Shown here: piece by piece, positions 3,802 through 41,335 of the stretch
Position numbering within the stretch: position 1 is the stretch's first letter
How the letters are laid out: each line of letters opens with the position of its first letter
Origin: Neelides folsomi
Taxonomy: Eukaryota; Arthropoda; Collembola; Neelipleona; Neelidae
Reading direction: 5' to 3'
NCBI GenBank assembly: GCA_034687125.1
Contig: JAQGBZ010000486.1
Span: 1 to 41,644, forward strand
Length of the DNA stretch: 41,644 nt
Position numbers and translations under genes: made by a program
Notes under the pieces: model-generated
Seen by the model: only the letters and a program-made list of their open reading frames with translations
Told to the model about the DNA's origin: nothing
The model's database searches: none

Positions 3802-5375
3802 GTACTACACTTTTGTACGTACATCAAAACGGAAAAGAAGATTCTAAACGAATAGTATTAAGAAAGGGACAAGTACTCAATAAAATCCATGACATTCACA
3901 CGGAAATAGGACACCTTGGATTTCGGAAAACATGTGATTTCATTTCGAAGGGTTAGTAATAATAAAATTGAAAATTAGTAATTTGTTAATTGAATCGTTA
4001 TTTAATTTTGTTAAAATAATGAATATATTTTACTTCAATTTATAAATCTTAAATGAAATTTTAGAATCTGGTTTTAATTAAATTTTAGGTTTTATTGGGA
4101 TTCAATGACAAAAGATGTTCGACAATTTTGTTCTTCGTGCAAACAATGTCAACCTAACAAATCTATGAAAGTTGATCAAGAGAAACTTCACCCCATTCCA
4201 CCGCCACAAGCTTCAGAACCGTTATTACAATGGGGAATTGATTTGATGAAAGTTCCAAGATCTGAAGGTCATGAATATTTAGTCATTTCTATTGAACGTT
4301 TGACTAAATGGACGGAAGCAGAACCATTAAAAACAAAAGTGCCATTGAAGTGATTGATTTTTTTTAATGGAATTTGCATGAGATTTGGGATGCCAAAAGT
4401 TCTTATTTCTGATCAAGATTAAAAAATTTATTATTTTTTAAATTAACATATTTGTAAAATTATGTTTTTATTAAATAATATTAAAATTTTATTCTCAATG
4501 ATTATTATATAATTTTATTTACAATATATTTTTATTACCAATTAGGGACCGAGTTTTGCAATGGATTATTCGACTTGCAATGGAAAATTATTGTGAAATG
4601 AACGGAATTATTCACCGAAGAACTCCTGCTTACCATCCTCAAGAAAATGGACTCACTGAAAGGCAAAATCAGAATATTAAGTGTGGACTAAGAAAATGCC
4701 AAATTTTAGATGTAATTTACTAATTAACAAATTTCTATATAAAATTGGTGGATAATTATTAAAAATATAAATAATATACTTAAATAATAATTTAAAAAAA
4801 ATTAGATTGGCTTCAAAACATTGGTCGATGATGCTAAACACTGGCCCTATAACCTCGACCGAGTTTTATTTGGATTAAGAACGCATGTCCCAAGATCTAC
4901 AGGATTTTCACCGTTTCACTTGGTTTATGGCTATGATCCAAGATTAAAAATTGACAATCAAATCGACAAACTACAACGAGAAGAAATAGATGGTACTGAA
5001 GAAAATATTCAAAATCATCTTTCAACCATACATGAACATTTTGCCATATTGGACAAAGGTCGTCGTGCAAGAGCAAAGATTTTAATTGAACAAGAAAAAC
5101 AGAAGGTTGCATATGAAATAAAGTTTAATAAGAATTCTCTTGATTTTCAAAAAGGCGAATTGGTAATTTTTAATTAGTCAATTTTATAAAATTATTATTA
5201 ATTTATTAAAAATAATCTATATTTTTTTAAATTATTTAAACTCAAGCTTTGTTAAAATTATAATTAATGTTTCATTTATTATTAATTATTGTAATTGTAT
5301 ATTTAATATTCATTTATAATTATTATAATACTGCATATTTACCATTTTAGGTTCAAGTTCGAAAACGAACAAGAT
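3802..5375 (+). pseudogene. degenerate intron-containing DDE integrase (gypsy/Ginger/GIN-like)
   Basis: Five blocks, roughly 3802-3952, 4089-4410, 4545-4710, 4804-5162 and 5351-5375, together read as one integrase. The zinc-binding HHCC module is HTEIGH plus CSSCKQC. The DDE core is also visible: Asp in QWGIDLM, Asp in LISDQ/GTEFC and Glu in HPQENGLTER. A C-terminal region with the PRSTGFSPFHLVYGYDP motif follows. Blocks are separated by AT-rich gaps that mostly begin GT and end AG, as spliceosomal introns do. The gene is broken: a phase mismatch at the first junction, frameshifts around 4345-4370 and near 4575, and a donor (after 4421) in which GT is lost. Introns inside the coding region argue against a simple gypsy retroelement and favour a Ginger-type DNA transposon or a former host gene. 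A hAT end starts at 5389, directly after it. Confidence 0.75.
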
Positions 5376-5388
5376 AAGGTGATGTACT

Positions 5389-7760
5389 CAGTGGCGGTCC
5401 TGCCATTGGGCACAGAAGGCACAGGCCTACCATAAATTTTGGAGCTTTACACTATATAAAATGGATTTTTTTGTTATTTGAAATATATATTGAATAAAAA
5501 AACTATTAAACTAATATTTAAAATGTATTTGAGTTTAAACTAAATACACAAATAAAAATGTATGATTAAAGCAATGGTAAATACAAACTTAGGGTAATAT
5601 GATAAAATCATTTACCATAGACAATATTCCGCTAATAAACGAGGGTTTAGTATCTTACATTTAAAATACTTTAGAGCATCAGAAAAATCAGAATACGAGG
5701 AATTAAAAGTACGCATTTAACTTTTCAATTAATCTAATATTTAAACTAAAAACTATGCCCAAAAAACAGTCTTCAATATTATCTTTCATTGTCAAATCAA
5801 AACCTGGAGTTTCAAGTGAAAAAAACACAGAAGATTTAAGTCGACAAAGTGAATTCCAATTACCAAGTTCGTCAGAATTGGCACAAAATTCTGCTGAAGT
5901 ACTTAATGCAGGTTAAATTAGTTAATTAAAATCATCAATACGAACAAAAGTATATATACAAATACCTATATATAAATATATAATTTAATTGCCGATTAAA
6001 ATTTGAATTAAATAAAAATTAATCTAATTATTTTGGATATAGAAAACCAAGACGAAGTTGAATCTGTGCCTTTAAATAAAAATTCTGAATTTGATAATTC
6101 ACCAGAAGATATAAGTAAATCCAAAGATTCGGTTCCAGTTCAACCAAGACGTTTAAAATTCCCCAAAACGGTGTTCGGTGGAAAAGAACGAGGATTTAAC
6201 GCTTTCTGGTACGATAAATATTCTTGGTTGGAGTATTCCACAATTACAGACGAAATTTACTGTTGCGTGTGTCGACATTTTTCGACTGCTAAAAATTCTA
6301 CATTCATCACTGGATTTTCTGATTGGAAAAACATTGCTGTTTCTTGTAAAAAGCATTGTGATCCATCAAGGCGCAATTCAATTCATTATAATTCTGAAGT
6401 TAAATTTTTAAATTACGAGAAATCAAAGTTCACCGGATCTATTGCTTCACTGGTTGATTCTCATCATAAACAAAATGTTTTGCATAATAGAAATGTGTTA
6501 AGCACACATATAAAGGTAATATTATATTAATATAATTATTTTAAAATTAAAAATAATCAATTTCTATTATAAAACATTAAAAATAAATTTATATAAAATA
6601 AAATGTACTTAAATTATTAAAAAACATTTATTTAATAGAATTCTTATTTTAATTTACTTTTTACAGATCGTGATAACTTGTGCGCAACAAGATCTTCCTC
6701 TACGTGGTCACAGAGAATCCGAATGCAATAAAGAAAAAAAAGAAAACGGGGATGCTGTTAAATCTCAAGGAAAGGATGAGACATTCAACAAAGGAAATTT
6801 TCTCGCATTCACAAGATTCGCCGAAAATGTCAGTCCCGAATATCAAAAATGCCGAATCCATGCCTGAAAATGGAAAATACGTTTCAGGAAAAATTCAAAA
6901 CCAAATAGTGAATATATGTGGAAATATTATAACAGAAATGATTTTTAGAGAAATCAAAGACGGAGTTGAATGCTATTCAATTATTGCAGATGAAACCATG
7001 GATAAAGGTAAAATAGAGCAATTATCACTTTGCATCCGTTATGTGTATAAGCTAAAAGTACATGAGAGATTTCTCGGATTTGTTGATTTGCACAAATTTG
7101 ATGCAAAAACAAAATCTGATGCTATCGTAAAAATGATTGAAAGTGCTGGTTTATTGTTAAAAAATTGTGTTGCTCAATCCTATGATGGTGCAAATGTAAT
7201 GAGGGGTGATTTTAATGGTGTTCAAAAAAAGATATCCGACATTGTTGATGGTTTTTGCCCATATATACATACATTGCTATGCTCATCGTTTAAATTTAGT
7301 GCTAATGTTTTGTTGTCAGTCATTAGAAGAACTCAACGATTTAATTGGATTACTTCAAGTCGTTTACAATTTTCAATCCAATTCCGCATTGAGAGCAGAA
7401 TATTTCGAAAACGCACAAAAAGAATGTGGATATTCAAAAATTTTATTACCAAAAAGTTGTGATACATGATGGTCAAGCCAAAAAATGGATTGAACTTTTT
7501 TTGTCTTCGCTTTGATGCAGTATTGACTGCATTGAATGTAATAATTAAGAATGGAAAAAGTGATGAAAAAGCTTTGTGTCGTGGCTTCAAAATGCAACTT
7601 GAAAGGTTTTCAACGCTTTTATTAATTTTCGCATGGAAGTCTTTGAATTATTCTGAATCCATTCAGCATACTCCCTGAAATTGTAAAATGCCATTTTTTA
7701 ATTAATATGCTTAAGATGTCAAACATGTCTCGTAGGATGTCAATTGTTAATTCTTTATAA
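5389..7760 (+). mobile_element. degraded hAT transposon with TTF-type zinc-finger transposase
   Basis: The 5' end CAGTGGCGGTCC (5389) is typical of hAT terminal repeats. No matching 3' end was found, so the right boundary is approximate. The transposase has exons 5755-5911, 6043-6515 and from 6667 onward. Exon 2 carries the TTF-type finger region (FNAFWYDKYSWLEY, then CCVCRHF). Exon 3 holds the hAT core, including the IADETMD aspartate, EQLSLCIRYV and QSYDGANVM. Breaks: a frameshift near 6825, another near 7270, a stop after SCDT at about 7460, and little readable coding beyond 7680. The relatives are ZMYM1-like hAT transposases. The element is inactive. Confidence 0.8.
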
Positions 7761-8035
7761 AGAAACTACTTTGCAAAATCTATAAGCTTGATAAATTATA
7801 AATATTTAAAAAATAACATTTAATTGCTTTATAATATCAGAGATATCCCAGATTTCTATGAATTAAAGCTACTACTTTGTCCTATTGATTTTAAAGGGTT
7901 TAACCTTCTTTGAATTAATCATTCGAGTGAGGAGCGATAGAGAAAAAGATTATATTATATTAATAAATAAGATGTTAATATGAAAGAATAAAGGTATAAA
8001 AATCTATAAATATATTTTAAATCATCAGTTGATTT

Positions 8036-11000
8036 TTATTCATCAATTTCTTTTCTCGAGACGAGTCTGAAAGTCTCTAAGAATTCATTGAGTGAAACTT
8101 GGCCATCTCCATTGACATCCAAACTCCTTGCAATGTCACAGAGTTCTTCCGTGTCAATTCCAAGGCCGCTACAAGCCTCACTTAATTCCTCAGCAGATAA
8201 ACCACCTTGAAATTAAATCAACAATAAACGAACATTTATTAAAACAAAACATTTTTACATTTAATTAAAAACTAAATTTTTTTATTGTTTATTTATTCGA
8301 TATGGTACGATTCCAATTTAAATATTAAATTGTAATTAAATATTAAATTGTAATTTTAATGAAATTGGATTATTTTGTCTTTTAAGAGTAAATTGAATTT
8401 GGGTTTACCTGAGTTGTCCACATCAATTTTTCTAAAAAGCGATTCCAAAGCAGCTCTGTGTCTGTACAAAACGGCTTCAACTCCCACAGGGACTTTGTCC
8501 ACATCGTCGAATGTTGATTCGTAATTTACCATCCCGTCCGAGTCCACGGTGGCTAATGAAGGACGAAGAAGTCGCCAAGGGACCTTTCAAACAAAACGAC
8601 CCTCCCGTTCACTTTCAAAATCATCATTGGGAATCTCAATGGACTTCTCCTTCAAACACCCGCGGGAGAACATAAATTCCTTTTTTAAACCTCGCTAGGG
8701 AATTCAACTAATCTCATATTACTTTTATTAAACATTTAAAAGTCCTATAATCCCAAATTCCTTTATTGGATAGTTAAAGAAATTGGAGGAATTTCCCATA
8801 TAGTAAGTTTAACTAAAGGGAAGATTCTCATCTTGGTATTTATACAGGATAGGTTAGGTTAGATTGTGAATATACCCTTAAGGTTAAGATGTCTTCCATG
8901 GCTTTTGCCCAATCTTTCACATTCAGAGTTTTGGTCTTCTGGGGATCAAAAGCTTCAAAAGCTGTGCGAAGTTCCCCTTTGTAGCACGCGATTCTTCCAC
9001 GAAGATCCCTAAATATACAAAATACATACATCATCATCCTGTATATAAAAGTTCATTTGTCAAAATTCAAATTGTATCCCCAAAATTTTCGCATTATTTA
9101 GCAAATTGTTTTATACAGTATTTAGCTTTTTATATTACCTTAATGCTGCTGCCTCCACATGACCCACGCGGTGTCTGAGTGGTAAATTCCTGGTTCTTGG
9201 AGTGAACGATGAGAATTGGAACATGATGGGATGAAGCGTGTTGGGGGATTCGGGTTTTCGGAGGAGCTTGACATAAGCCCCGCGGTTGCTTCCTTCTTCG
9301 TAATAGTTCGAAGCGGAGAAAATTGTAAGGACCTGCAAAGGATTTTCAATTTAACGCCAAACTTCATAAATCATTTTCTCTCATAAAATGAAAATCCAAA
9401 TCAAATTAATCCACAGCAAATCCAATTATTTCAAACAATAATTTCCAATCACAGGCTAATTAAATTCATTGTATACAAAATATGTATATTCATATATACT
9501 ATACATATATTCTTATATAGGATATATTCAATAAAGATTATATAAATTATTGTCCAAAATAATTAGTCTTAAGAATCGGATGAAAACAAGAGGATTGATT
9601 TTGATTAGAAATTGAATAAGGATGAAAACAATGAATAAAAATTTGCTACAAGAGAAGATCCAAAGTGAGACGAAGAAAGATTTTGGCTTGGGAGGTTTCG
9701 CGTGGGGAGTTTGAAGGGAAGGAAAAGCAATTAACTCCGGCTTTCCATCCAACTTCAAACTGGTGCCTTGGGATTGGCCGACTACAAAAACCTACTTTAA
9801 AATAGTAAACCTATAAAATTTAAACTCAAAAACCCACTATAACTTTTTATGCCACGACTCGTGCTAATCCTCAATAAATCTATGAACCCTGGCAAAAACA
9901 ATTTTATAAAAAGTCCTTAAAACTTCAATACCAAGAATTGCAAGAATTGCAAGAATTCTTTTATATAAAAAACGTAAATTCAAAATTAAAACGTAAATTT
10001 AAAATGTAAATGTAACTTGTACCAAAATTTGAAATTTTATTAAAATTTTAGTCAATTTGTGAATTTCCGCGTTTTATATATAATTTTGGTTTTTGTGCAT
10101 GAACAAAAGTTCATTTGAAACATTTTTGCAGAAATGAAAAATGGCATTTGATAATTTAATAAGGAGAAATTGCGAAGAAGAATCTTATGACGTAATTTTG
10201 GAAATGACTCAGCTCATGTTGCATCTTATTTCTCTTCCACTCCAACCCTCACCTTTAAACAAAACTCGCCGCTTCTATTCAATAAAAAAACTTTTACAAT
10301 TTCGTTCTTTCACTTTAACTTTGGCTCTCTTTTAGTTTTTCCATTAACAAATTAATTTTTCCCTTTTGTTATGTCAAAATTGTTCTACTTGGAGTATAAA
10401 GTTTCCACATCCTATGAGATACTAATTGAATAAAAAACTTTTTTTCAATTTCTTCCTCATCCATACACATGGGTATATTGCTTTAAAAGAATTGTTGGTT
10501 AATAATTTAACTCAATTTGGAAATTTACTTATTGAATAAATGGGAACATTATATTAACTTAACAGCTTTAATATTTGATTAGACCATAATTGATAACATG
10601 TTTAACTCATCCACATCCATTATTCTTTTATTACACAATGATTTTAAATTCGCATTATTTTTCCAAACTTCTCCACTTAAGTAAATGCATAAATAATTTA
10701 AGAAAATAAAAGAGCTACATATATATAAATAATAACTATATAAATAAAAAATACATTACTAGATATAGTCATAAAATATTTAAAATCTTAAAAATTGATT
10801 AAAGTGATCAAATTAAATAAAAATGTATTTAATATATTTACTGTAAATTGGACTTTTCTCTTTATTTGAGTGAAAGGGATAAAAAGGGTTTTAGAGGTTG
10901 AGTGGATGTAAAAAGAGATCTCGCTTAATCTCACAATCTCCTCGAATAAAAAGGGAAGATAAAAGGAAGTTTGAATCTTCTTTACTTTCACACTTCTCCC

Positions 11001-17803: not shown

Positions 17804-20762
17804 CCCGCCTTCAACTCCGGAAAAGAGTGACTGAGACCTCAACAAGTCCAAGTGGTGGTTTTAGCCCGGCTCGGCTCCAGCGCAGTTTTCCCTCCGTGGA
17901 AGTTGGAAGAAATGTCAAAGAACTCCAGCGCAGGCTCGCCGTCCAATCATTATCAATCTCAATCACAGCAACTCCCCACAACTCCCCTCAATGGAACAAA
18001 ACAAGAAGACCAAAATAAGACGTTCCCTTCACCTTTAACTTTTCCACCATTTGTAGAAAACCTCCGCTAATTTGTTCGTAAACAACGCAATTTAACCAAA
18101 AGACCAAAATGGAACATAAATCCATTTAATTTTAACAATGAATTTATTTGAATAATATAATATTAATATAATGAATTATTGGATCATTATTGGATATACA
18201 TTAAATTGTATTGATAACATTAACTAAAGGTTCTTTAGTTTTTGTGGCGGTTGTTTGTGTTTAATCCATATCTAAGTAATCAAGTCATTGATGGTGGAAG
18301 GATTTGGGCGGTTGGGCGACGTGTTCGCGTTGGCTGTCAATTTGTCAAACGACTTTTTCCATTTCCCACTTCAATGGACAAAAATGAAACTGATTCAACC
18401 AAACTCGCTTTATATTGCTAGTTCTTTTATATCTTTTCTTCATTTTATGGCAATGTAGAACATAAATACACTATGTAATAAAGTGTACCCATTCACATAT
18501 GCACAAAAGAAAGTGCTTTATTTAACAATAGGTACAGTACTTTTCTTTCTCCTTTCAATAAACAACTAATACCATATACATAATATATAAATCCTTACCT
18601 ACATTCATATATATATATATGTACTTTAGTAGTATCGTTAGTAGATATTATAGTCAAAATCTGTAGTATCTGTAGATATATTTAATATAATGCTTAAGAT
18701 CACTGTGATATGATCAATATATATATCAAATTTTGTTCAAAAGGGTCGTTGATGCGAAGTTGAATAAAATGTCATTTCTTACACATTCTTTCACCAATTA
18801 CAAATAGCTCACTTTCACTATATAGTATACTATACATACAGATATGTATACCATACCATATAATATGTATAATGTTATTATAATGTTAATATGTATAATA
18901 CCTAAAGGTAATTATATAGTATACTATACATATCTTAGGATCTGTAGTTTTTATCCTGATTTTGAAGATTTGGTATTATTTATATAGATACTTAACTTTG
19001 GATTAGTTAGATGAAGGCAACAGCTGTGTAAGGATGAGTGAACGTATTGTAAATATAAATACGGGTTCTATTGGACCTTTTGTTAAAGAGTTGAATGAAG
19101 TCCGAACTCATGAGAGATAAAATATATGGTTCTTTGAATGTGTAGAAATACCCGGGTAGAATAAGGAACAGATATGTACCATACAGTATGAACAGATATG
19201 TGCTATGTACATATTGTATATGAGTATATTGTATTTTCTAAGTAACATTAGTTGAGAGGATGAAGCTTTTGAAGGAAAAAATATCTCTTTGCTTTCTTTT
19301 CCCATCCTTCACTCAAAGACCCAAAACACACGTAAAAGTCCTTTAAAACTCCATCAAAATATATAAGGCTTCAGTAGACATTCAACTCAAAGACATCGGT
19401 CATGGCTTTATTTATTAACGAGATTTAGGAACATCGCAGGATTTAGCCATAAGAGGATAAAAGAGATCTAAAGCTCCAAATTTCCCATATATCAATTTTA
19501 TCTATCTTTATGTGGTTAATAATATTTGGAACTGTTTTGGGTGTAATTGAATGAATTGTGACTTTGGAGAAGATTCGAAACTGCGGGACTTTTGATGAAT
19601 AATGGTAGGAAATTGTGTTTTGTATCAAATGGTTTTTCTTCTACGTTTCCTCATCGGGGTAAGTGGTTCTCTCTGTACTAAAAGAGATAAGAGGATTTAT
19701 GGAACAGACATGGAGAAACGCTTGATAAATCAATCCCACAAAGAACCACCAATTTACATTCAGGGCCCTTGCCAGTTGGGGGAATCCACAGGGGGGAATA
19801 CATGCAAGAATTTAATTCGGCCATCCTTATTTACTCAAATTCTCTTCCAAACAGTTTTATTGCTTTTTAATTATTTTAATTCCACGAAATTTTCTAATTA
19901 AATACACTTTCAATTGCTTATCGGTCCCATGCTGGATTTATTACATATTTGGATAAATAAGGATGTAATGAACCATATTAAATACTTTGCGTAAATCTAA
20001 ATGAGATGAGAGTCATTAGAGATTATTTATATTGTAATTAAATAAGCAGTTAAGCAGTTTATCAAATAAGAGATTTATTATATATACTCATTTGATATAA
20101 TGTTACATAAGTAAATACGTAAATATTTATGTATAATGCATTTATGTTTGTACTATATCCATATGTATGGTATTTATATTTCTAGGAATTAATATTTTAT
20201 ATGTATGGTGGTTCGTGGTATATGAGGAGATAAAACGGTTTTGATGCTGAGAAATTAAAATGAAGTTTTAATTGAAGTCGAATGACGGTTGGATCAATAG
20301 ACTAAATGTAGATGTCTAGGTAAGTTTGTATATTTAAGTAATAATGGATTGTAATCGCAGGAAGTTGGTGATTCCATTCAAACGAGGGCTTTTATGCTCC
20401 TTTCAATTGCGTAGATAAAACGTATTAATGAATCCTTTTCATCAGAATGCGAATGTGAAGGACATTTGGAGTATGACAGGTGAGGAAGGAAACGAAGGAT
20501 GGAATTGTCTTTTACAAACACATGCCAATTTCAAATCAACTCAAAAACATGATTTGATAAATATTAAGTTTAATTTAAAAATTAAATGAATTTCATTGAT
20601 TTTATTTTTTAAAATTTTAATAAATAATGAGAATATTGAGAATGAATAATGAATGAGTAATAATAATAATGATTTATTCAGTAGTAGAAATTAGTCATTA
20701 ATATCTAATAAATGTAAATATAATAAATAATAGGTATTGGTTTTAAAAATAATTTTTCATTT
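17804..20762. other. intergenic: phosphatase upstream region and repeats
   Basis: The part near 17804 should contain the rdgC promoter, and there is no convincing upstream exon. The rest is AT-rich with TATA/ATAC simple repeats (18600-18960). An open frame at 19602-19901 (99 codons) has no recognisable domain and poor start context. I leave it unassigned. Confidence 0.5.
18819..18932. repeat. 20-bp direct repeat pair
   Basis: TATATAGTATACTATACATA occurs at 18819-18838 and again at 18913-18932, and contains the palindrome TATAGTATACTATA. Both copies sit in an AT-rich block upstream of the phosphatase gene. Function unknown. Confidence 0.6.
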
Positions 20763-22036
20763 TTAATTATTTTTAATTAACCAAGTCACGGCAAGATTTA
20801 CAATCATATGATTAATAAAACCTGCAAATTCATTATTTATGTCCAAAACTCCCCCCAATTTTATTCTAATTGGGCGGAATGATTTGCTCATCAAGTTTTC
20901 ATTTTTACTTTTTTGAAGAAATGAAAGCTTTATAAAAATTCGCGAATGGGATTCCAATTTATTGATGAAATAAAATGTAAAATTCATACAAAAAAAGGCG
21001 AATATTAACAGGATAAGAAATGGTAAATATTTGCTGAAAAATATTGATGGATTTAATGTAGAAATGGCTAAATAGCTTACGCAAATGCTTAAAAGGATTG
21101 CGGTTCCGAAAATGAAAATGATGGCAATTATTGTTATTGGAAAATAAAATACAACATTGGTATAGTTTGACATAATTGATAGTTGTTTATATATTTGAAA
21201 AATATTATTGGAGTTTTTAAATCTCCATGGTCGAAGAATCAACTCGGCCATCCAATTTATTTGAAATTTTAAAATTACATAAACATGAAGAAATGTGTAA
21301 AAATTTAAGAAAACTGCTTGTAATACTAAAAAATAATATGGAATAATAATTATTAATTCCCATAAATGGCTTTCAAATTTAAATATTATTTTTAAATGTC
21401 GGTAAATATAAAATTTGAAAATATCTTTGTCCCTTAAAATAAATGACACGGTTGAAAGTAGAAATGCTTCAAAATAAGAAAAATAATTTGTAAATTTTAA
21501 AAAATGATTTAAAAACATTTTTTTATCATTGTAAGCCCGCTCCTTTTGAGAAAAATAATAACCTAAAAAAATAATTTAATGCATTTAAAAATTAAATTTA
21601 AAACCTAACTACCTATATTTAAAAAATATTAAATGAATAAATATATAATATTCATACGTTGATATTTCAAATCAGAATAAACTATTTCATTAATTAATTG
21701 AGTAATAAAGGTTATTGAATATTCATATAAAAAGGAATAAACTATACAATTAAATATCACTAATAAATAAAATCCATTTAAATATAGGTCCAAAGTATCT
21801 TCATGTTTTGCTTTCTTTTGATTTTGCCAATCAAATTTAAATTGGGGAAAAATAAATAAAAACGTGACTAACAAGATCAATGGGTAAAAATATCTTGAAA
21901 ATGGAAAATATCTATAATTTTGGATTTTGAGAGTGAACCTGATATCATTCCATATGCTTTTATGGGATAAAAAAGTTGAAACTTTATAAAAGCAGTGAAT
22001 TACGTAAAGGTTTTTATTTGAATACATTTTTAACAT
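20763..22036 (-). CDS. seven-transmembrane chemoreceptor (gustatory-receptor-like)
   Basis: Two exons, 22036-21658 and 21562-20763, join in phase (C|GT gives Arg) into 392 residues, the usual length of insect-type gustatory and odorant receptors. Hydrophobic segments alternate with short charged loops. Clear examples are RYFYPLILLVTFLFIF and YLNGFYLLVIFNCIVYSFLY in exon 1, and VFYFPITIIAIIFIFGTAIL and FLILLIFAFFCMNFTFYFI in exon 2. Near the C-terminus SKSFRPIRIKLGG precedes a last hydrophobic helix. That motif recalls the S-x-RPxRIKxG tail I associate with springtail receptor families. Expected role: ligand-gated cation channel or sensory receptor in the plasma membrane. The ligand is unknown. 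Assignment to a named GR subfamily is not possible by eye. No disruption is visible. Confidence 0.75.
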
Positions 22037-22256
22037 TGACTATAAGTTTTATAAGTCTATAATTAAAATCGGAGTTATTTATTGCCAAATATCCAATTGA
22101 TTTTAAGTAGGCAAACATATTTAAATTATTCGTATTCTAATCATAAAGATTTGTATCGAATTTAAATTGACTAGTTTTATATTGAAAAGAACATTAACTA
22201 TTTTATTTTACATTAGCTATTTTTATCTGAATTGGTATAACTCCATTATTATAATA

Positions 22257-22342
22257 TACTACCCAACAACGAAAAGGTTTGAGCGATCCTTGCTTAATGT
22301 CAAACTGAGGGATGGCGCAAACTTTTTTGTTGTTGGGTAGTA
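22257..22342. mobile_element. short hairpin MITE with TA ends
   Basis: Inverted arms TACTACCCAACAAC (22257) and GTTGTTGGGTAGTA (ending 22342) match perfectly, and the pairing extends inward with a few mismatches (GTTTGxGCxATCC). The outermost TA on each side fits a TA target duplication as made by Tc1/mariner-type elements. At 86 bp it carries no gene. Confidence 0.65.
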
Positions 22343-22517
22343 GTATATATACTCTAGGTATAAATACTATATACAATACTCGATTCCTTGTATTCGGAAC
22401 ACTCTGATAATTTTATATTATATGTACATAAATATGCAAATTTTTGCCGGTATATGAGTCTTTGTTTATTTAACACTCTATATTTTAAAAAATAAGTGTT
22501 ATCTAGTTTAAAATAAA

Positions 22518-27843: not shown

Positions 27844-30800
27844 TTACTTTAAAAATTTCTCCAAGATTAAATACCGTGAAGGATCCTGGCACGAAATGGC
27901 CGGGTTGTTTCTAAAATTCAAACACATGATTATTACATTGGCGTTTAATGGCATTAATTAAATAGAGTTAAAAAGAATCCAATTTATTTACCGGCTTTGA
28001 ACAAGAAAAACGTTTCTTGATGATGATTGCAGCATTCCATTGTCGCACATTATAGCTCCAAGTGTTCGTTTACTGATTTCTGCAACTTGTGATGATGTGA
28101 AACCACTTGTTTGATGGGTGAAGAAAAGGCGATCTCCGAACTTAAGTCGCCTGGCCTGTTCACCAATAATGCATTGGAAAGTTTCGCCGATGATTCCACC
28201 AACTGATGGAAATTCAAGCAACCCTCCGGTAAAAAGGTCAATGTCTTCTGGCGACCTGTAAAGTCCACTCAGTCTCGACAAGCCTGAACCATCCACATTT
28301 GGTGGCGGGCTTCCAAAACTGGTCACTGGTGGGAGTCCACACAATTTTCTGAAAGTGTTCCAAGGCGGAAGACCGTGATCTCGTCCACGCTATTCAACAT
28401 TAAATTAAATTTTAATTTATAGTTAAATTATTAATGTTAGTTAAATTATAATTATTAGTTAAATTATGTTTAGATATTATAAAGAATAAAGACTATAAAT
28501 TAATTCCATTAATTGATTGTAAATTAAAATTCAATAATTTACTTGGATATTTCGAGCGATCAAATCGGATCCAAAATTTGCTCCTTGAGCTCTGAATAGA
28601 AAATTGGTGAGATCGCCTGTAACTAAACGATCAAAAGCTTGTGCATTGGCCCTCATCATCCCCATCATGATTAAATCGAATCTAGGAAAATATTTTTATA
28701 TTAATTAACATTTAATTAACATTTAATCAATGTTTAGATCCTAACCCTTTTCCATTTGATTGAAGCAAAGCACTTGGATTAAAAAAGCTATCTCTGATTG
28801 TAAATGCTCCTGCTGGCGCTCCATTAACATCGAACATTTGGAACACGCCGTTGACCAAAGAATGACCAAATCTGTAAGCGGCCGTGGCAAATGAATTAAT
28901 CACCGATGGATTAATATCTGGGTCGTAAGTTGAAGGTCGATTGACCCAAAGATTGTTTTTTGACATTCCTTGACCCAACAGCACTGGTAAATACTCCCCA
29001 TATGTAATAAAAGCAAGTTCAGCCCCAACGATCTTCCTAATAATAATTAAATTATATTAATTTTAAAATATTTTGCTTTATACTTACAATTTGTTAAATT
29101 ATGAATTAAAATTAAAATTAAAAACCTCGTTAGTTGGTAAACATCTTCGTCGGACCATGAATTTTTTGTAACCCTATTAATTTCCGTTGCAATTCGATTG
29201 TGTTCTCTCAAGAATACTAAATATTTATTAAATGTATGATATTATAAATTAAATGTCCATTTAGAATTGAATTCATAAAATGTTAATAATTGTGAAAGTG
29301 AATTATAATTAGTAAAATTGTAATTTAGGTAATTAATATTAAATTTATTTATTACGATTGTGCATCGTTGTTAGAGCCGGATTTTCATTAATTCGATCAT
29401 CCCCTGCAACGAAACTTCCTTGGATTGTATCCCTTGTTACATCTGATGGCATTGGGAGAAATCCCATAGGAACAGCAGACCGAGCTTTCAACAATCCTTT
29501 AGGTTTACGAAGGTCACGGGCACGAGTTGTCGTAGACCCGTAAATTTGTGAACCGTCGATAAACGCCGTATTGGTGTTGATCTGCTCACGAACTCCGGAT
29601 TTCGCTTTAATTTTCATTAATTATTAAATATTAATTAAATATTAAATAAATTAACAAATTTAAAGTACAAGGTGAGCCCGAGTTAACAATCTTATCATAT
29701 GGTAAAAAAAGCGTCAACTCGGAGGACTCGGACCCACCTTGTATATCACACATCTTTAAAAAAAGCTTACTTCCAAAACACCCAATTGACCTGGTGAAAT
29801 CAAGACAATTTTGACCTGACCTCACTCCATTATGGAATTGATCATTAGCTGGGATTGGAATTTGAAGTCCACAGCCCGGTTGATTTGGATTTCGACAACA
29901 CATCAAATCTATGTAAATTAGTAAAACATATTAGAATGGAATTTAAATCATAATTAAAATAAAACTTGAATGGTTAAAATAATTTATTTTAATATTTAAT
30001 TATTTAATATTTTTTCAACAATTACTTCCTTCTGGCGTCATGCTGATGTCATGATCTAAAAACTGCCCAAATACGGGCACAGCATTTGTGATGGACGGAT
30101 CAATCCTGTTTTCACTGGTGTGGACGGTCGTGCTGACAATACGAGGATTTGGGAGTCTGGATGGCTTTCTAGTTGCAGGCATTCCCCCGCGTGGTTCTGA
30201 AGTCCTGTCTTCGTAACTTGAGGTCACGATTCGGGTCAAAGGTGTATTGGCAGCTCCCCAAAGAGGATTATTTTTAAGGTTGTTGCATGACCCATCAATG
30301 GTTCTTATTTGAGAATTTTGGCAGGTGGGAGTGGGGCGGCCGCACGCTGGAGGTGACGTCCCTTGGCGAGTCATCAAACCCAAAGCTTCGCCAAATCCCA
30401 TGTCATGTCTTTTTAATTTTAAATGATATTATTTAAAATTTAGCATGTTTAAGCATAAATCGTTGAATGTTTTATGATTATATCAATAATTAAAGTAATT
30501 GTGATTAATTCAGTTAATAGTTTAGTTAAAATAAGATTAATTAATTTAAAAACATTTCAGCGAGGATCTCTGTGGCTTTTTCATAAATGCTGCTATTTTT
30601 TTCCATTTCTTCACTAAAAGCTGTCATTTTTGTTCCTCTTCTTTTTGCATATCCCGCGGTTAAGGTATTGTTTAGTGTTACCACATTGTACCATTGTTCA
30701 GCGTCCTTTCAATAAAACAATCATTTAAATCATTTAACAATCGTAAAATTATCAAATAATTAAATTTTTAATTTAATACCTCGATGGCTCTCTTCACAAT

Positions 30801-33034: not shown

Positions 33035-34329
33035 ATGGAAACTGTTGTCATTGTAGGAAGGTAAGAAAAATTTTTGTTCATTTTATTAATTATTCAATAT
33101 AGTTTTAACATTTTAAATTTTAATTACAATACAATTACCATTATAATTAAATTTTAAATAATATTAAAATTACAGCGGTCTTGTTGGAAAATCCTGGGCA
33201 ATGCTTTTTGCCTCAAAGGGCCATCAAGTTCGTCTCTACGATTCATTCCCAGAAGCCGTTGACAAAGCCCCGGGTGAAATTGAAGAAATGATGAGGAACT
33301 TTGAGTCGAAGGGATTTCTCAGAGGAGATTTAACAGCAGATGAACAAATTAAACTCATTAAAGGTAAATTCCCAATTACAAATAATATCACAATTTAAAT
33401 AATTATTTAAATAATTATTTCATTAAAACTTAATTGTTGATTTAAATTTACGTATTAATTAATTAAATGGTTTTTGAATAACAGGTTATAAAGATTTGGA
33501 CGAAGCCTTAGTTGGAGCAACTTATGTCCAAGAATGCGCACCAGAAACGTTGGAATTGAAAACCAAAGTTTGGCACATTTTGAACGAGAGTTTGAAAACT
33601 GTGGGAAATTCAACGGCCGTTCTTGGGAGTTCTTCTTCAACAATCCAACACTCCGAATTCTGCCCAAGCGAGTTGGAAGTGAGCCAAAGGTCGCTCATTG
33701 TCCATCCCGTGAATCCACCTTATTTCGTATCGTTGGTTGAACTTTGCCCTTCCGCTGCCACCAACGACGATGTGACCAAGAAAGTCAGAAATCTCATGGA
33801 ATCGATTGGGATGAAGCCTGTGGTCATTAATAAAGAAATTCCGGGATTTGCACTCAACAGGATTCAGTAAAATATTAAAAGCTATTTAATAAAACGATCC
33901 AAAATAATTAATAACTTAATTGATATTAAATTTAATAATTGTAATTAAATATTAAAATAATTAAATATTTTTAGATATGCAATTTTGAACGAAACTTGGA
34001 AATTGGTCGAAGAGGGATATTTAACTGTGGCCGATGCAGATTCCGTAATGAGGGACGGTTTGGCTCCAAGATATGTTTTTATGGGCCCGTTGGAAACTGC
34101 CCAATTGAACGCCTTTGGCTTTGTCGACTATTGCACTCGTTATGGAGACGGAATCAAAAAAGTGTCGGAGACAATGACGAGGATTCCACACATGACGGCC
34201 GAATCGTGTCTTCATATTGACACCCAGCTACAGGAAATGACCAAAGATGAGGATTTGGGCCAGAGGAGAAAATGGCGAGATGAAAATTTGGCACTTTTGG
34301 CAAAATTCAAAAATAATCTTCAACTTTGA
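33035..34329 (+). CDS. CRYL1: lambda-crystallin / L-gulonate 3-dehydrogenase
   Basis: Exons 33035-33060, 33176-33363, 33485-33866 and 33975-34329 join in phase into 316 residues (human CRYL1 has 319). The N-terminus is a Rossmann fold with VVIVGSGLVGKSW (G8, G10, G13) for NAD binding. The conserved HPVNPPYF motif places the catalytic His at residue 145; the preceding LGSSSST segment holds the conserved serines. The C-terminal helical domain follows, with GFALNRIQYAI and VMRDGLAPRYVFMGP. The family oxidises L-gulonate to 3-dehydro-L-gulonate in the uronate route and is cytosolic; related 3-hydroxyacyl-CoA dehydrogenases share the fold. The poly(A) signal AATAAA is at 34359-34364. The gene appears intact. 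Confidence 0.95.
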
Positions 34330-36538: not shown

Positions 36539-39500
36539 ATGGAAGAACCTTCGTGGTTTTGCTGCCTTAAACAACCTAAAAATATACCACAGGTGAACAT
36601 TTAATTAAACAACTACTTAATTAACTATAGCTAATTAACTTACTATATTATAGTAATAATAAAATTATAATACTACAATTGTACTGTAATTTTGTAAATA
36701 AGACGTAATAAGTAGTTAATGTAAATTATGTACATGTAGTATACTTAAAGATAAATAAAACGATTAATTAATTAAAATTCTAATATTACATTAAAGGTAG
36801 AAATTAAAATAGTGCATGATTTAAATATAATAATGTTATTTAAAAGAGTAAAGAAGTAAATGCCCCTGCCAAACCCCCAATCGTCTGCCAAGTGAAAGGA
36901 GGAGAAAACGAAGGAGAAATGAAACAAGTAATTAACCCTAATTACACTCCTTTAACAAAAACAAATATCCTTATACATAAATAGACTAGCTAAACAGTAT
37001 TTATCAATATTTCATTCTTGTTCCTTTCATTCTCATTGTATTTGTATTATTGTATTATTGAAGTTTAATTTTGATATTGGGATTTCGGATTTTTAATACT
37101 AAAATTACATGATGTATGATTTAGATTTATAGTTCACACATGTCTGTATCAATTGCAAATTACTCAAATTGTCCAAATTTGTTAATGTAGAAAGAAGAAA
37201 ATGAAGATCCCGAGAGTGAAGGGATGAGCTCAGACAGGAAAACTTTCATTATCAAAAAGATCCTTAGAATGAACAGAATGATGGGATTTCTCAAACCACA
37301 GGAAAAACCTTCAACTCAACAACTGTCAAAGACACAGCTCCAAGTGCAGGTAAAGGAAAGAAAATAGTTTAATTATTTATTTAAATAAGGAAAATTAAAT
37401 GTAATATTATATAAAAGTTTATAATATATAATAAATGGAACAAAGCGATGAAAATGAATAATTTTGTAATTTGGTTTTGATTGAAGGAGAAAGACGAAGA
37501 CGAAGAAGAAAACGCCCGAGTTTCCAAATGGGGAACTTTGGGACGAGTTCTTAGATTTTGGTCTTTGAGATCTCCGGGAAATGAAGAAAACCCAAATAGG
37601 GAAATTCCTATTGATCCAAATGAAACTTTAAAATCACAAGTAAACAATCTCAAATTTTTAATTGGCCTATAATTGAAATCCATAAGCTAATTATATTCAA
37701 TTTAAATAGTTATAATCAAAATTAATAAGTTAAACTAATCAAAATTAAATCTGACAGGTTAGTGATGGGGAATCAATGTTGGTGGTTTTCCCTGATGGCT
37801 CGGTAAACAAAATCAAAAGTTAAATAAGTGATTTAATTGAAATCAATTCATTTATTCCTAATTGTAATTACTTAAACCAATTAACAGAGAAATCCTACAC
37901 CTGAACCAACAACAGAGAATGAAACCGAAACGGAAACTTCCAGCCGACCACGTCTCACTTTTAAACGGTTGGCAAAAATCAACAAAACGCTTGGATTCCT
38001 CCACAGGGACAACAATGTAAATTTTAACTTAAATTTTTATAACTATTCATTATTTAAATTATGTAAATATTGCATTAAAATGTATTTAAATTTTATTAAA
38101 TATTCCAATTTGACTTATTCAGAGAAAAGAAACTCCAAAGGAAAAAAAGAAAATCACATTTAAAAAATTGGCAAAAACTACTAAAACATTAGGAGCTTTA
38201 GGTCTCATGAAATCCAAAGCGGAACCTGTGCCAAAAAAGGTAAGGACTTTAAATAGTTTCAAAATTAATAAAAAGATTTTTAATGTTTTGAAATTTTATC
38301 AATTATGGTTTTGTACATAAATATTTTGTTGCTTCCACGTTGTTTCAGAAGAAACGATTTACGTTCAAAGGTCTCGCCAAACTTAATCTCTTGCTTGGGG
38401 GCGGCGGATCCGTCGACGCCACCGACAATGTAAATAAAATAATAATTTGTAAGATGCTTTTTAAGGGAAAATCTCAACTTTCCTCTTTGCTTCCTCTTTG
38501 CTTCCTCAGAGCTCCCCTGTTAAAAAAAGTAGCCCAAAGAAAAAAGTTTCGTTCTTGAGACTCGCAAGACTCAACAAGGCATTTGCTGGCTTAAGGATGC
38601 GCAGACGGCAAAAAGTACTTCATTAAATAATAATATTTAACTTCATATTTACTCCAATATAATTTAATTAAGCTATGAAAAATTAACAAAATTATTACTA
38701 ATAATTTATTAGGAATTAAATTTGAATTTCATTGTACATAAGTATAAACTGATAATAATTAATGTAATAAGTATGGAAAATAATATCAAAATTAATAAAT
38801 ATGGCCAATATTTAAAATTTTGTAATTTTTATAAATTTATAGGTTCCTATATTTATGCCAGCCAAAGACATTTTTGCTCCTATTTTCCGAATGAACAAAA
38901 CTTTGATGACTTGGGCCAACAAAGCAGCCGAGAAAGAGCAGAAAAGAAAGAAAACTATTTTCTCTCGATGGAGCAAAGTTGGAAGAGCTCAAAGAACATT
39001 TTCAATGTTTTCATCTAAATCTTCCCCAAAGGTAAATTCCCAAATTCATCAAAATTAACATTTAAACAAAGTTGATTAAAGTTAAATAAAGTTAATTAAA
39101 GTTAGTTATCTAACAGTAATAGTATATTAAATTGACTTCAAATTGAAGGTCCACGACATTACAAGTGCCATGGGAAAAGAAATGACCAAAAGCACCGTTT
39201 CTGCCACCTTCATCGCCCGTAAAAGCGTGGGCCAAACAGGAAAAACTCATCCGTTGGTTGCGGCCGTTTTGGAAGCGAAAGCTCGTGAAGAAGCCGAAGC
39301 CGCCGGGATTCCTTGGGCTGAACGTAAAGAGTCAATCATTTCAGCCACAAATGTGAGCTTTGGACGGAAGGAATCTTTGGGAGTTTGGCCAAGGAAAGAA
39401 TCAAATCCGCTTTTAGCCGCAGTGCTCCAACAAGCAAGGCGGGAATCAATGGAACGAGGAATTTCAAATGTTCTTACAAGCCCAAAGCTCGAACTTCCCA

Positions 39501-41335
39501 CAACTGTCCAAGAACTCCCGGAAGAACAAAATACAGAAAGTGACAAAACAAATCCTCAAAGACGAACTTCAATATCCCGCCAACGTAAAGATAGTCTAAA
39601 TTCTGCGAATAGTATAAATTCTGCGAAGGAAAGGAAAGATAGTTTAAATTCTGCGAATAGGGAACGTAAAGACAGTCTAAATTCTGCAAATTCTGGAACC
39701 ACAGCAAAAGTTACAGAAGATCAAAATGGACAAAGAAGAAGTTCAATTACAAGGCGGGAATCTTCAGTTGGAAGGAGAAATTCAATTGTAAGGCGCGATT
39801 CTTTGACTCCGTCCATTTTGGAGAAAAACGAAGACCAAGGAGTTGAGGGGCGGGAGGAAAAGGGAAGGAGGGAAAGTTCAAATAAAGTTCACACCGTTTT
39901 ACTCCTCAATCAAATGAAAGGCGGGAGGAAAAAGAGCAGTTCAAATGAAATTTCCCCACAAGATCAACCAGACGATGTGGAAGTCGAAGAAGTTTTTGAA
40001 AGACCGCAAACACAAGAGGAATTGAACGATTCAATGAAAATTGCTCAGATTGTGGATGAAACTGGTCCTGGGTTTAATGTAAATAAAAAACGCAATATGA
40101 TACCAATATAACTTTAAAATATATTAAAATCTTTTAAATATAAACAATTAATATTTAATTTAATTTTAAATTTCTTTTTTAATTTAAGACTGTTCGTAGC
40201 GGATCAGAAAATCATAAAAGATTAATGCACAGAAAAAAAGCTTTGTTCAAAAAATGGGCCAAATTCTATCAACTTGTTTGTGCTTGGAGGATGATGGTCA
40301 ACAAATACGGAAATGTGAGAAAGCCCATTTGGAACTTATTAAAATTAAATTAACATTTAATTTACAATTAGATGATTAATCATTAATAAACAATTAATTA
40401 TTAATCTTTCAATTAGCAATAAGTTAGTTAACCATTATTCGGTTATAAATTTTAATTGTGTTTCAGGACACTTCCAATTCCATCAAGCTCCAGCTTCTCC
40501 GTGGCAAAATGCGAACAATCAACGAGTTGATGAACGAAGCCGGAGCGATCAAAGTCAAATGCCAACAAGAAATCGAAGAGATGCGTCCGAACGTAGAAGA
40601 AGCGTACAAAGAAACGGAACTTCCTTACTGCGCCCTTGACCTCATGCGATCAGTTAGATTTAATCCGCCACAAGCTGTACAACTCGTCATGGGAGCAATT
40701 TGCATCCTTAAGGTAAAAATAATTAATCATTGCTTATATCTTAATACACTTAACGTATTTACAATATTTAGTTAATAATTAATTTAATTAGGGACTCGAG
40801 CCAGAATTTACTTTGAGTGCTGGTCAAAAGATCATTAGCCATATGGACTATTGGGGAACGTCGAAGAAACTCCTTGCCTGCAACTTCCACGAAGAACTCT
40901 CTGACTTACGGAAGAGTGAAAACATCCATTATCCAAATATTCTCGAATTCCAAGAAATCATTCTCAACAACCCTGACTTCAATAGAGAGAAAATCAAAAG
41001 GGCTTTCCCACCTTGTGCAAGTAAAATCAATTAACTTTAAAGTCAGCACATTTTTAAAATGGAATAATTAATTAAATTGTCATATTTAATTGTTGTTTGA
41101 TTCTTCAGTTTTGTACGATTGGATCTTGAAGGTTGAAGCTTATGGAATTGTTGTGTGCCAAGTGAAGGAGAAGCAAGAGACAATCCAAACAGCGGAGAAC
41201 ATGATCAGAAAAGGGGAGCTCATTTTAAAGCAGTTGGAAAAAGCTCTTCGGAAAGTGGAGAAAAGAAGAAGCCAAGAACTTTTCAACCCAAAACCAATAT
41301 CAGTCAGACTCAATCAATCAAACAAATACAATTAA
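36539..41335 (+). CDS. orphan dynein-stalk-like protein with repeated basic modules
   Basis: Fifteen exons: 36539-36592, 36847-36927, 37191-37349, 37487-37639, 37758-37802, 37888-38016, 38123-38239, 38349-38429, 38510-38614, 38843-39031, 39149-40078, 40189-40314, 40467-40712, 40792-41020 and 41109-41335. They give 956 residues, all phase 0 except the last intron. Residues 1-18 include CC, a possible palmitoylation site. Residues 46-371 repeat a basic/hydrophobic module about once per exon (LTFKRLAKINKTLGFL, ITFKKLAKTTKTLGAL). Residues 372-681 are Ser/Arg-rich with RKDSLNSAN repeats and many RRxS motifs. Residues 724-950 match the dynein heavy-chain stalk and microtubule-binding domain: NPPQAVQLVMGAICILKG, DYWGTSKKLL, NNPDFNREKI, then a Trp-containing helix and a Glu/Lys coiled coil. 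No P-loop or AAA sequence is present. Proposed role: microtubule binding under kinase control. This is inference. The first two exons are the least certain. Confidence 0.8.

Follow-up and report, generated by a model that had tools for sequence, protein, structure and literature searches.

The DNA described here raises the question of whether a dynein stalk, together with the microtubule-binding domain (MTBD) at its tip, can exist in a gene that lacks the dynein motor. The dynein MTBD is the far end of an ATP-driven lever, and its affinity is set by the motor through the registry of the stalk. The window, by which we mean the whole stretch of DNA analysed, is the entire 41,644-nucleotide contig C486 from the 75.1 Mb assembly (840 contigs) of the springtail Neelides folsomi. 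An initial annotation, made from the sequence alone, had recognised stalk landmarks near the end of this contig and proposed that a motor-free stalk tip is fused to a basic arm. The sequence supports this architecture, but binding of microtubules by the product remains a predicted property. The explanation that we favour, with moderate confidence, is that the window gene belongs to a set of seven in this genome that encode motorless proteins of dynein origin, which may act as static microtubule decorators or cross-linkers.

A hand-built gene model starting at position 36539 consists of 15 exons on the forward strand and encodes 956 amino acids (aa), the same length as given in the initial annotation, with the stalk occupying residues 724-956; its introns are in phase 0 throughout except for the last one, which is in phase 1. 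Exon 1 (36539..36592; residues 1-18) has an open frame and a GT donor, and the ATG at 36539 is its putative start codon. Exons 2 (36847..36927), 4 (37487..37639) and 5 (37758..37802) have predicted splice sites in phase 0, exon 5 being short and the least certain of the model. Basic-hydrophobic motifs are found in exon 3 (37191..37349; FIIKKILRMNRMMGFLKP at 37245), exon 6 (37888..38016; LTFKRLAKINKTLGFLHR at 37954), exon 7 (38123..38239; ITFKKLAKTTKTLGALGL at 38153), exon 8 (38349..38429; FTFKGLAKLNLLLGGGGS at 38358), exon 9 (38510..38614; VSFLRLARLNKAFAGLRM at 38546), exon 10 (38843..39031; DIFAPIFRMNKTLMTWAN at 38867) and exon 12 (40189..40314; ALFKKWAKFYQLVCAWRM at 40240; net charge +10), and between the last two of these lies exon 11 (39149..40078), which encodes a 310-aa, probably disordered, Ser-rich arm (12.3% S). 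The stalk is encoded by exon 13 (40467..40712), which carries the distal part of the first coiled coil (CC1) and MTBD helix H1 (NPPQAVQLVMGAICILK) and is followed by a phase-0 intron between ILK and G; exon 14 (40792..41020), which carries H2, a flap insert and H3-H5 (with DYWGTSKKLL and NPDF), its helices being named by alignment to dyneins rather than from a structural model, and is followed by a phase-1 intron after PPCA; and exon 15 (41109..41335), which carries H6 (LYDWI), a shortened second coiled coil (CC2) and a TAA stop codon at 41333-41335. We infer from the in-frame phase-0 splice sites that the arm exons are joined to those of the stalk. The final four exons had already been put forward in the initial annotation, and they were recovered with GT-AG joins, a single frame and the expected peptide.

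Other parts of the window contain a trypsin-like protease (1060-1893), mobile-element-like open reading frames (ORFs) at 4806-7462 (viz. a segment at 4806-5177 that resembles a retroelement integrase by eye and has no Pfam match, and a DUF4371 match at 6677-7462 with an E value of 9.4e-15), two hydrophobic ORFs of 270 and 136 aa on the reverse strand (20763-22039) that appear chemoreceptor-like by eye, the longer one having no Pfam match, an animal haem peroxidase (27988-30428) and a 3-hydroxyacyl-CoA dehydrogenase-like sequence (33478-34329). The assembly also includes a 15.2-kb mitochondrial contig (C742), in which COX1 is open under code 5 and the gene order is what we take to be the usual arthropod mitochondrial order.

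The region at 40467-41335 is identified, far above chance, as a dynein stalk with its MTBD. All of the landmarks listed for it in the initial annotation (viz. the coiled coil, DYWGTSKKLL, NPDF and the WI helix) are present in the window peptide, and the last 275 aa of the protein match 33 distinct solved-structure sequences at E<=0.001, the best solved dynein being DNAH12 (phmmer E value of 1.2e-18), with DNAH3 at 1e-17 and DNAH7 at 1.1e-14. The Pfam profile for this domain (PF12777, MT), which had been suggested as a check, gave a borderline outcome: the C-terminal 275 aa (E value of 7.3e-5, 22.4 bits), the isolated stalk (4.1e-5, 23.2 bits) and the whole 956-aa model (0.0019, 17.8 bits) all have significant E values, but each score falls short of the 24 bits set as the curated cut-off. 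Direct comparison with solved dyneins is clearly positive, both for the window protein and for a profile built from seven related stalks described below, which matches DNAH12 with an E value of 2.4e-26. A match of the 956-aa model to DUF3974 (E value of 2.4) was taken as chance, and a single-sequence structure prediction for one window exon (76 aa; mean pLDDT 51.8, pTM 0.32, four helices) was uninformative.

With the window stalk as query, six more loci were identified in the genome, one each on contigs C95, C724, C3 and C157 and two on C360 (C360a and C360b), and ordinary dyneins on C399 and C122 were matched weakly in the same search. When two other members were used as queries, the matches at E<=1 comprised these seven loci and one on C89 (E value of 0.59), which was treated as chance. 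The paralogue stalks are 26-40% identical to that of the window, and identities within the family as a whole range from 23 to 43%. A tree of 19 stalks groups the seven in a single clade (100/100 support) on a long stem branch (1.34 changes per column), and they are judged to be a well-supported gene family. The existence of six paralogues makes a cut-off dynein gene or an artefact unlikely. The two members on C360 are arranged head to head, with their stalks at 20687-22485 (-) and 29075-29931 (+) and both motif arrays between them, and a promoter region common to the two is possible. On C3 (506056-507076) a short open N-terminus with MENDKESKIPLK is followed by the stalk, and no arm motif was found at this locus, which may represent a minimal member of the family.

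Comparison of the family stalks with those of dyneins indicates which parts of the domain have been kept and which have changed, and it bears on a different explanation for these genes, viz. that the stalk fold has been kept while microtubule binding was lost or replaced, so that the MTBD would now mediate contacts with other proteins and the shortened coiled coil would form a rod. Several changes are in accord with such a role. Six residues (P53, R64, F135, R147, P156 and Y161) do not vary among the seven members and are seldom or never found at the corresponding columns of 12 aligned dyneins, and four of them (P53, R147, P156 and Y161) are counted in its favour, as are the long stem of the family and the loss, in all seven members, of a proline at the MTBD end of CC2 that is present in all five reference dyneins. 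Among the resident dyneins this proline is found in 7/7 in one alignment set and in 6/7 in another, the lower count being due to C44 having been modelled through another exon. Five members have K or R at the basic position of H1, which we take to correspond to K3299 of cytoplasmic dynein; the window copy and C360b have Q there. The net charge of the window copy's MTBD core is -2. The loss of the CC2 proline would fit a loss of registry signalling, and together with the Q in H1 of the window copy it may leave room for altered or lost binding. Ahead of H6, F-P-P (F-R-P in C3 and Y-P-P in C360a) takes the place of a different stretch, and the residue preceding the H6 tryptophan is D in six of the seven members and K in six of the 12 aligned dyneins. 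Against lost binding, the family retains H1, with its basic residue in five of the seven, the invariant PP of NPP and a flap separating H2 from H3, which the resident dynein C122 lacks; the spacing from NPP to the landmark W/F is close to the dynein value (97-99 in the family vs. 96 in three dynein ORFs), and the MTBD core is better conserved than the stalk as a whole (mean column identity of 60% vs. 47%). Taken on its merits, lost binding is possible and rather unlikely, and we continue to favour a static decorator or cross-linker.

The positions of introns provide information on the origin of the family. The resident dynein gene on C399 encodes a stalk with 107 of 186 residues identical to DNAH12, and it shares with the family, in both place and phase, the phase-0 intron between ILK and G (found in 5/7 members) and the phase-1 intron between PPCA and xLYDW (found in 7/7). 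The C3 member has no ILK/G intron and carries a different phase-1 intron. Among the other resident dyneins, C117 has the second of these introns and C122, C453 and C66 have neither (C500 and C44 were outside the comparison). In view of the introns matching C399, the family is probably derived from the stalk exons of a DNAH3/7/12-type dynein, and the presence of two such introns points to duplicated genomic exons rather than retroposition. The intron evidence is judged to be stronger than that from the tree, in which the family clade joins C399 and DNAH7 with weak support (66/89). In the scenario that we propose, stalk exons of a DNAH3/7/12-type gene were duplicated, a new 5' part would then have been acquired, and later duplications would have given rise to the present copies. 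This probable descent, and the fact that the motor gene C399 is still resident, are also what would be expected of dominant-negative regulators that occupy dynein sites on microtubules, or stalk-recognising partners, and thereby tune the resident inner-arm dyneins. We consider this improbable, as it has no direct evidence and leaves both the long arms and the seven diverged copies unexplained.

Fragments of large genes are common, and the Pfam scores of these loci are below the cut-off or absent (only one of the seven family stalks, each scanned singly, matches the MT profile at E<=0.01), which would be compatible with decaying pieces of dynein genes, i.e., pseudogenes. Such decay is very improbable for this family, because the stalks are open in 7/7 loci over three to four exons, derived residues are common to the copies, and their end points are similar. 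In addition, the pooled fractions of differing sites over 4612 codon pairs are 0.52 at codon position 1, 0.40 at position 2 and 0.66 at position 3, and the order of position 3 above position 1 above position 2 holds in 21/21 member pairs, which overlap in their members and are not independent; this pattern is read as protein-level constraint on the family.

The initial annotation had also claimed that the gene ends right after the second coiled coil and that it encodes no AAA module. A TAA stop is indeed present, but CC2 itself is shortened: the stop is located 70 aa past the landmark W, compared with 85 aa from this W to GGLGGEK, presumably the start of AAA5, as measured in three dynein ORFs of the protein collection. 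Only 309 bp separate the stop from the end of the contig, so the window alone leaves room for a gene that continues. The paralogues make an end at the window stop likely, and all seven family frames, read straight on, stop 47-95 residues past the landmark W (F in C3). Profiles for AAA4 (PF12780, AAA_8) and AAA5 (PF12781, AAA_9) have no match on the window contig or on the contigs of the six paralogues (C95, C360, C724, C3 and C157); in the genome they match only C44, C66, C117, C122, C399, C453 and C500, the same seven contigs that carry PF12777, and thus they match all of the ordinary dynein contigs and are blank at the window, in agreement, for the two modules covered by the search (AAA4 and AAA5), with the claim of no AAA module. 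The reading frame continues without a stop upstream of the mapped stalk for 101 (C95), 130 (C360a), 145 (C157) and 183 (C360b) codons, running into low-complexity sequence, and therefore no AAA4 exon directly precedes CC1 in these four loci; the open stretches in C486 (6 codons), C724 (31) and C3 (31) are short and uninformative. At the DNA level, the exons were thus not found to form part of a longer dynein heavy chain, the result that the initial annotation had named as contrary to its proposal. That the window, being a whole contig with the stop so near its end, holds exons of a full dynein gene broken by the contig end or by mis-assembly is the least credible of the explanations considered, since the stop is in frame, the paralogues on C157, C95 and C3 lie well inside contigs of 143, 195 and 678 kb without AAA_8 or AAA_9, and four of the seven loci are open upstream of CC1 into low-complexity sequence.

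The sequence that precedes the stalk constitutes the second distinctive part of these genes. The fusion of a basic, Ser-rich arm to the stalk, as described in the initial annotation, is seen in the window, where the net charge is +36 for residues 1-371, +3 for residues 372-681 and +10 for residues 682-723, and low-complexity or basic sequence lies upstream of the stalk in at least five of the seven loci. Exon 11 contains 14 R[RK]xS sites, which are of the type recognised by PKA, a basophilic kinase; the mean in shuffled sequences is 0.54 and none of 10000 shuffles reaches 14, the excess being partly due to a short repeat (RKDSLNSAN) within 39149-40078. The arm of C360b has PGTPG repeats in place of those of the RKDSLNSAN type. 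A search of the genome with the window arm returned only itself at E<=5, so that no paralogue arm was found by ordinary search.

The region upstream of the stalk contains repeated copies of an 18-residue basic-hydrophobic motif, and most of these sites were first chosen by eye. An earlier scan had largely re-found the training sites of its own profiles, and the motif counts were therefore taken from a leave-one-locus-out test, in which sites had to reach the score ranked fifth among those from 208,612 nt of control DNA. In this test, profiles from all other loci found 5 upstream sense sites in C360a, 5 in C157, 3 in C95, 2 in C360b and 1 in C486 (0.06-0.10 expected), and profiles from the same class of loci found 5, 3, 4, 4 and 3, respectively. 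The motifs are thus present upstream in 5/7 loci by profiles that omit the locus tested, and no upstream motif was found by such profiles in C724 and C3. No locus has more than one antisense match. Of the two C360b sites, one is simply a run of basic residues, and the single C486 site found with the all-other-loci profiles is marginal and ties this locus only marginally to the class formed by C360a, C95 and C157. The link between the two motif classes (C360a/C95/C157 and C486/C360b) is weak. In the window, the exon 3 motif was recovered by profiles lacking this locus and those of exons 6 and 7 by the C360b profile, while the motifs of exons 8, 9, 10 and 12 were recognised by eye and not recovered in the leave-one-locus-out test. 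Counting non-training sites, profile A (C360a, C95 and C157) found 6 upstream, 2 downstream and 0 antisense, with 6 in seven dynein loci on both strands, and profile B (C486 and C360b) found 2 upstream, 3 downstream, 1 antisense and 0 in the dynein loci, from which there is no enrichment by profile B alone. Motif-like matches also occur downstream of the C95 stop (minus-strand coordinates 5494-9690; best match SDIIKLIKINLTIKTEVK), with 4 sites by the all-other-loci profiles and 1 by the class profile; these may reflect chance, a neighbouring gene or a continuing gene. The class profile also gave 1 downstream site in C360a. An amphipathic helical character of the motif was unsupported at 100 degrees (the observed value is equalled or exceeded in 1102 of 2000 shuffles), and a periodicity peak at 110-120 degrees was post hoc and is not claimed. 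Our confidence in the favoured explanation rests mainly on the stalk.

Searches for similar proteins outside this genome gave no comparable architecture within the data covered. A stalk-region search of full-length proteins returned none at E<=0.01 among 936 candidates. The seven-member stalk profile gave 4 matches in the protein collection, among the 7999 candidates sharing most words, and a profile of the core gave 7 matches among 322 candidates. Of the 11 matched proteins, three run into GGLGGEKQRW and one has AAA_8, identifying them as pieces of ordinary dyneins; two have VAPK and LCKW and are motor-like, and five end ahead of the family's PPxA-YDW junction and are uninformative about it; this junction is seen in none of the 11. 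Eukaryotic genes appear to be represented in this collection by single ORFs, which suits it poorly to intron-rich genes, and hence absence elsewhere is weak evidence. We found no description of a motorless or stand-alone dynein stalk in the open-licence literature. On the present data, the seven loci appear to represent a new, motor-free family with a dynein-derived domain and presumed microtubule binding.

Several known systems resemble this family in part. Its closest solved relatives, DNAH12, DNAH3 and DNAH7, have the flap between H2 and H3, and two intron positions are common with the resident gene of this type; the family differs from them in the absence of detected AAA4 and AAA5, in its short CC1 and CC2, in the loss of the CC2 proline and in its new upstream sequence. 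The yeast proteins Vik1 and Cik1 are Kinesin-14-associated non-motor subunits that have a motor-derived microtubule-binding fold and do no ATPase work, but their fold is that of kinesin and they are partners of a motor subunit, whereas the stalk family has no known partner. Tau and MAP2 are classical microtubule-associated proteins with basic, phosphorylated, disordered arms; they are similar in the basic, Ser-rich arm with kinase-type sites and differ in having no dynein stalk. A parallel is also provided by the SRS-DYNC1H1 and SRS+-DNAH7 fusions, which likewise present a motorless MTBD on a stalk and decorate microtubules (PMC6629372). In these man-made seryl-tRNA-synthetase fusions the registry is fixed by the partner, whereas the family is natural, with a free or self-paired short stalk and a basic arm.

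According to that study, the isolated MTBDs of DYNC1H1 and DNAH7 decorate microtubules when held on fixed stalks, and the flap of DNAH7, which touches the neighbouring protofilament, has been proposed to have a flattening effect on the lattice (PMC6629372). By analogy, a ringless stalk in a natural protein would be expected to bind and not to be released by ATP, provided that the changes seen in the family have not abolished binding. For a static decorator or cross-linker, CC1 and CC2 would pair as a short stalk that presents the MTBD, which would dock on the groove of the tubulin dimer while its flap extended to the next protofilament, as it does in the isolated DNAH7 MTBD. Without the ATPase ring nothing would drive registry shifts, and the affinity would therefore be set by the fixed stalk and not cycled by ATP. 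The basic arm could hold a second microtubule, tubulin tails, a membrane or another partner, and a PKA-like phosphorylation switch could be provided by the 14 R[RK]xS sites of the window copy. Given the axonemal ancestry of the stalk, these proteins would most likely act in sperm flagella or sensory cilia.

In broader terms, we see an even chance that this is a natural family in which evolution has freed the stalk from its motor in one arthropod lineage, yielding static and possibly kinase-regulated decorators or cross-linkers encoded by seven genes, which in sperm or sensory cilia may have taken over from axonemal bridges or been added to them. A motorless clade that has diverged to 23-43% identity would constitute a natural experiment on the MTBD acting alone. 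It would help to separate the stalk residues required for motor coupling, for which the CC2 proline is the first candidate, from those that bind tubulin, and it would add an evolutionary route to microtubule-associated proteins.
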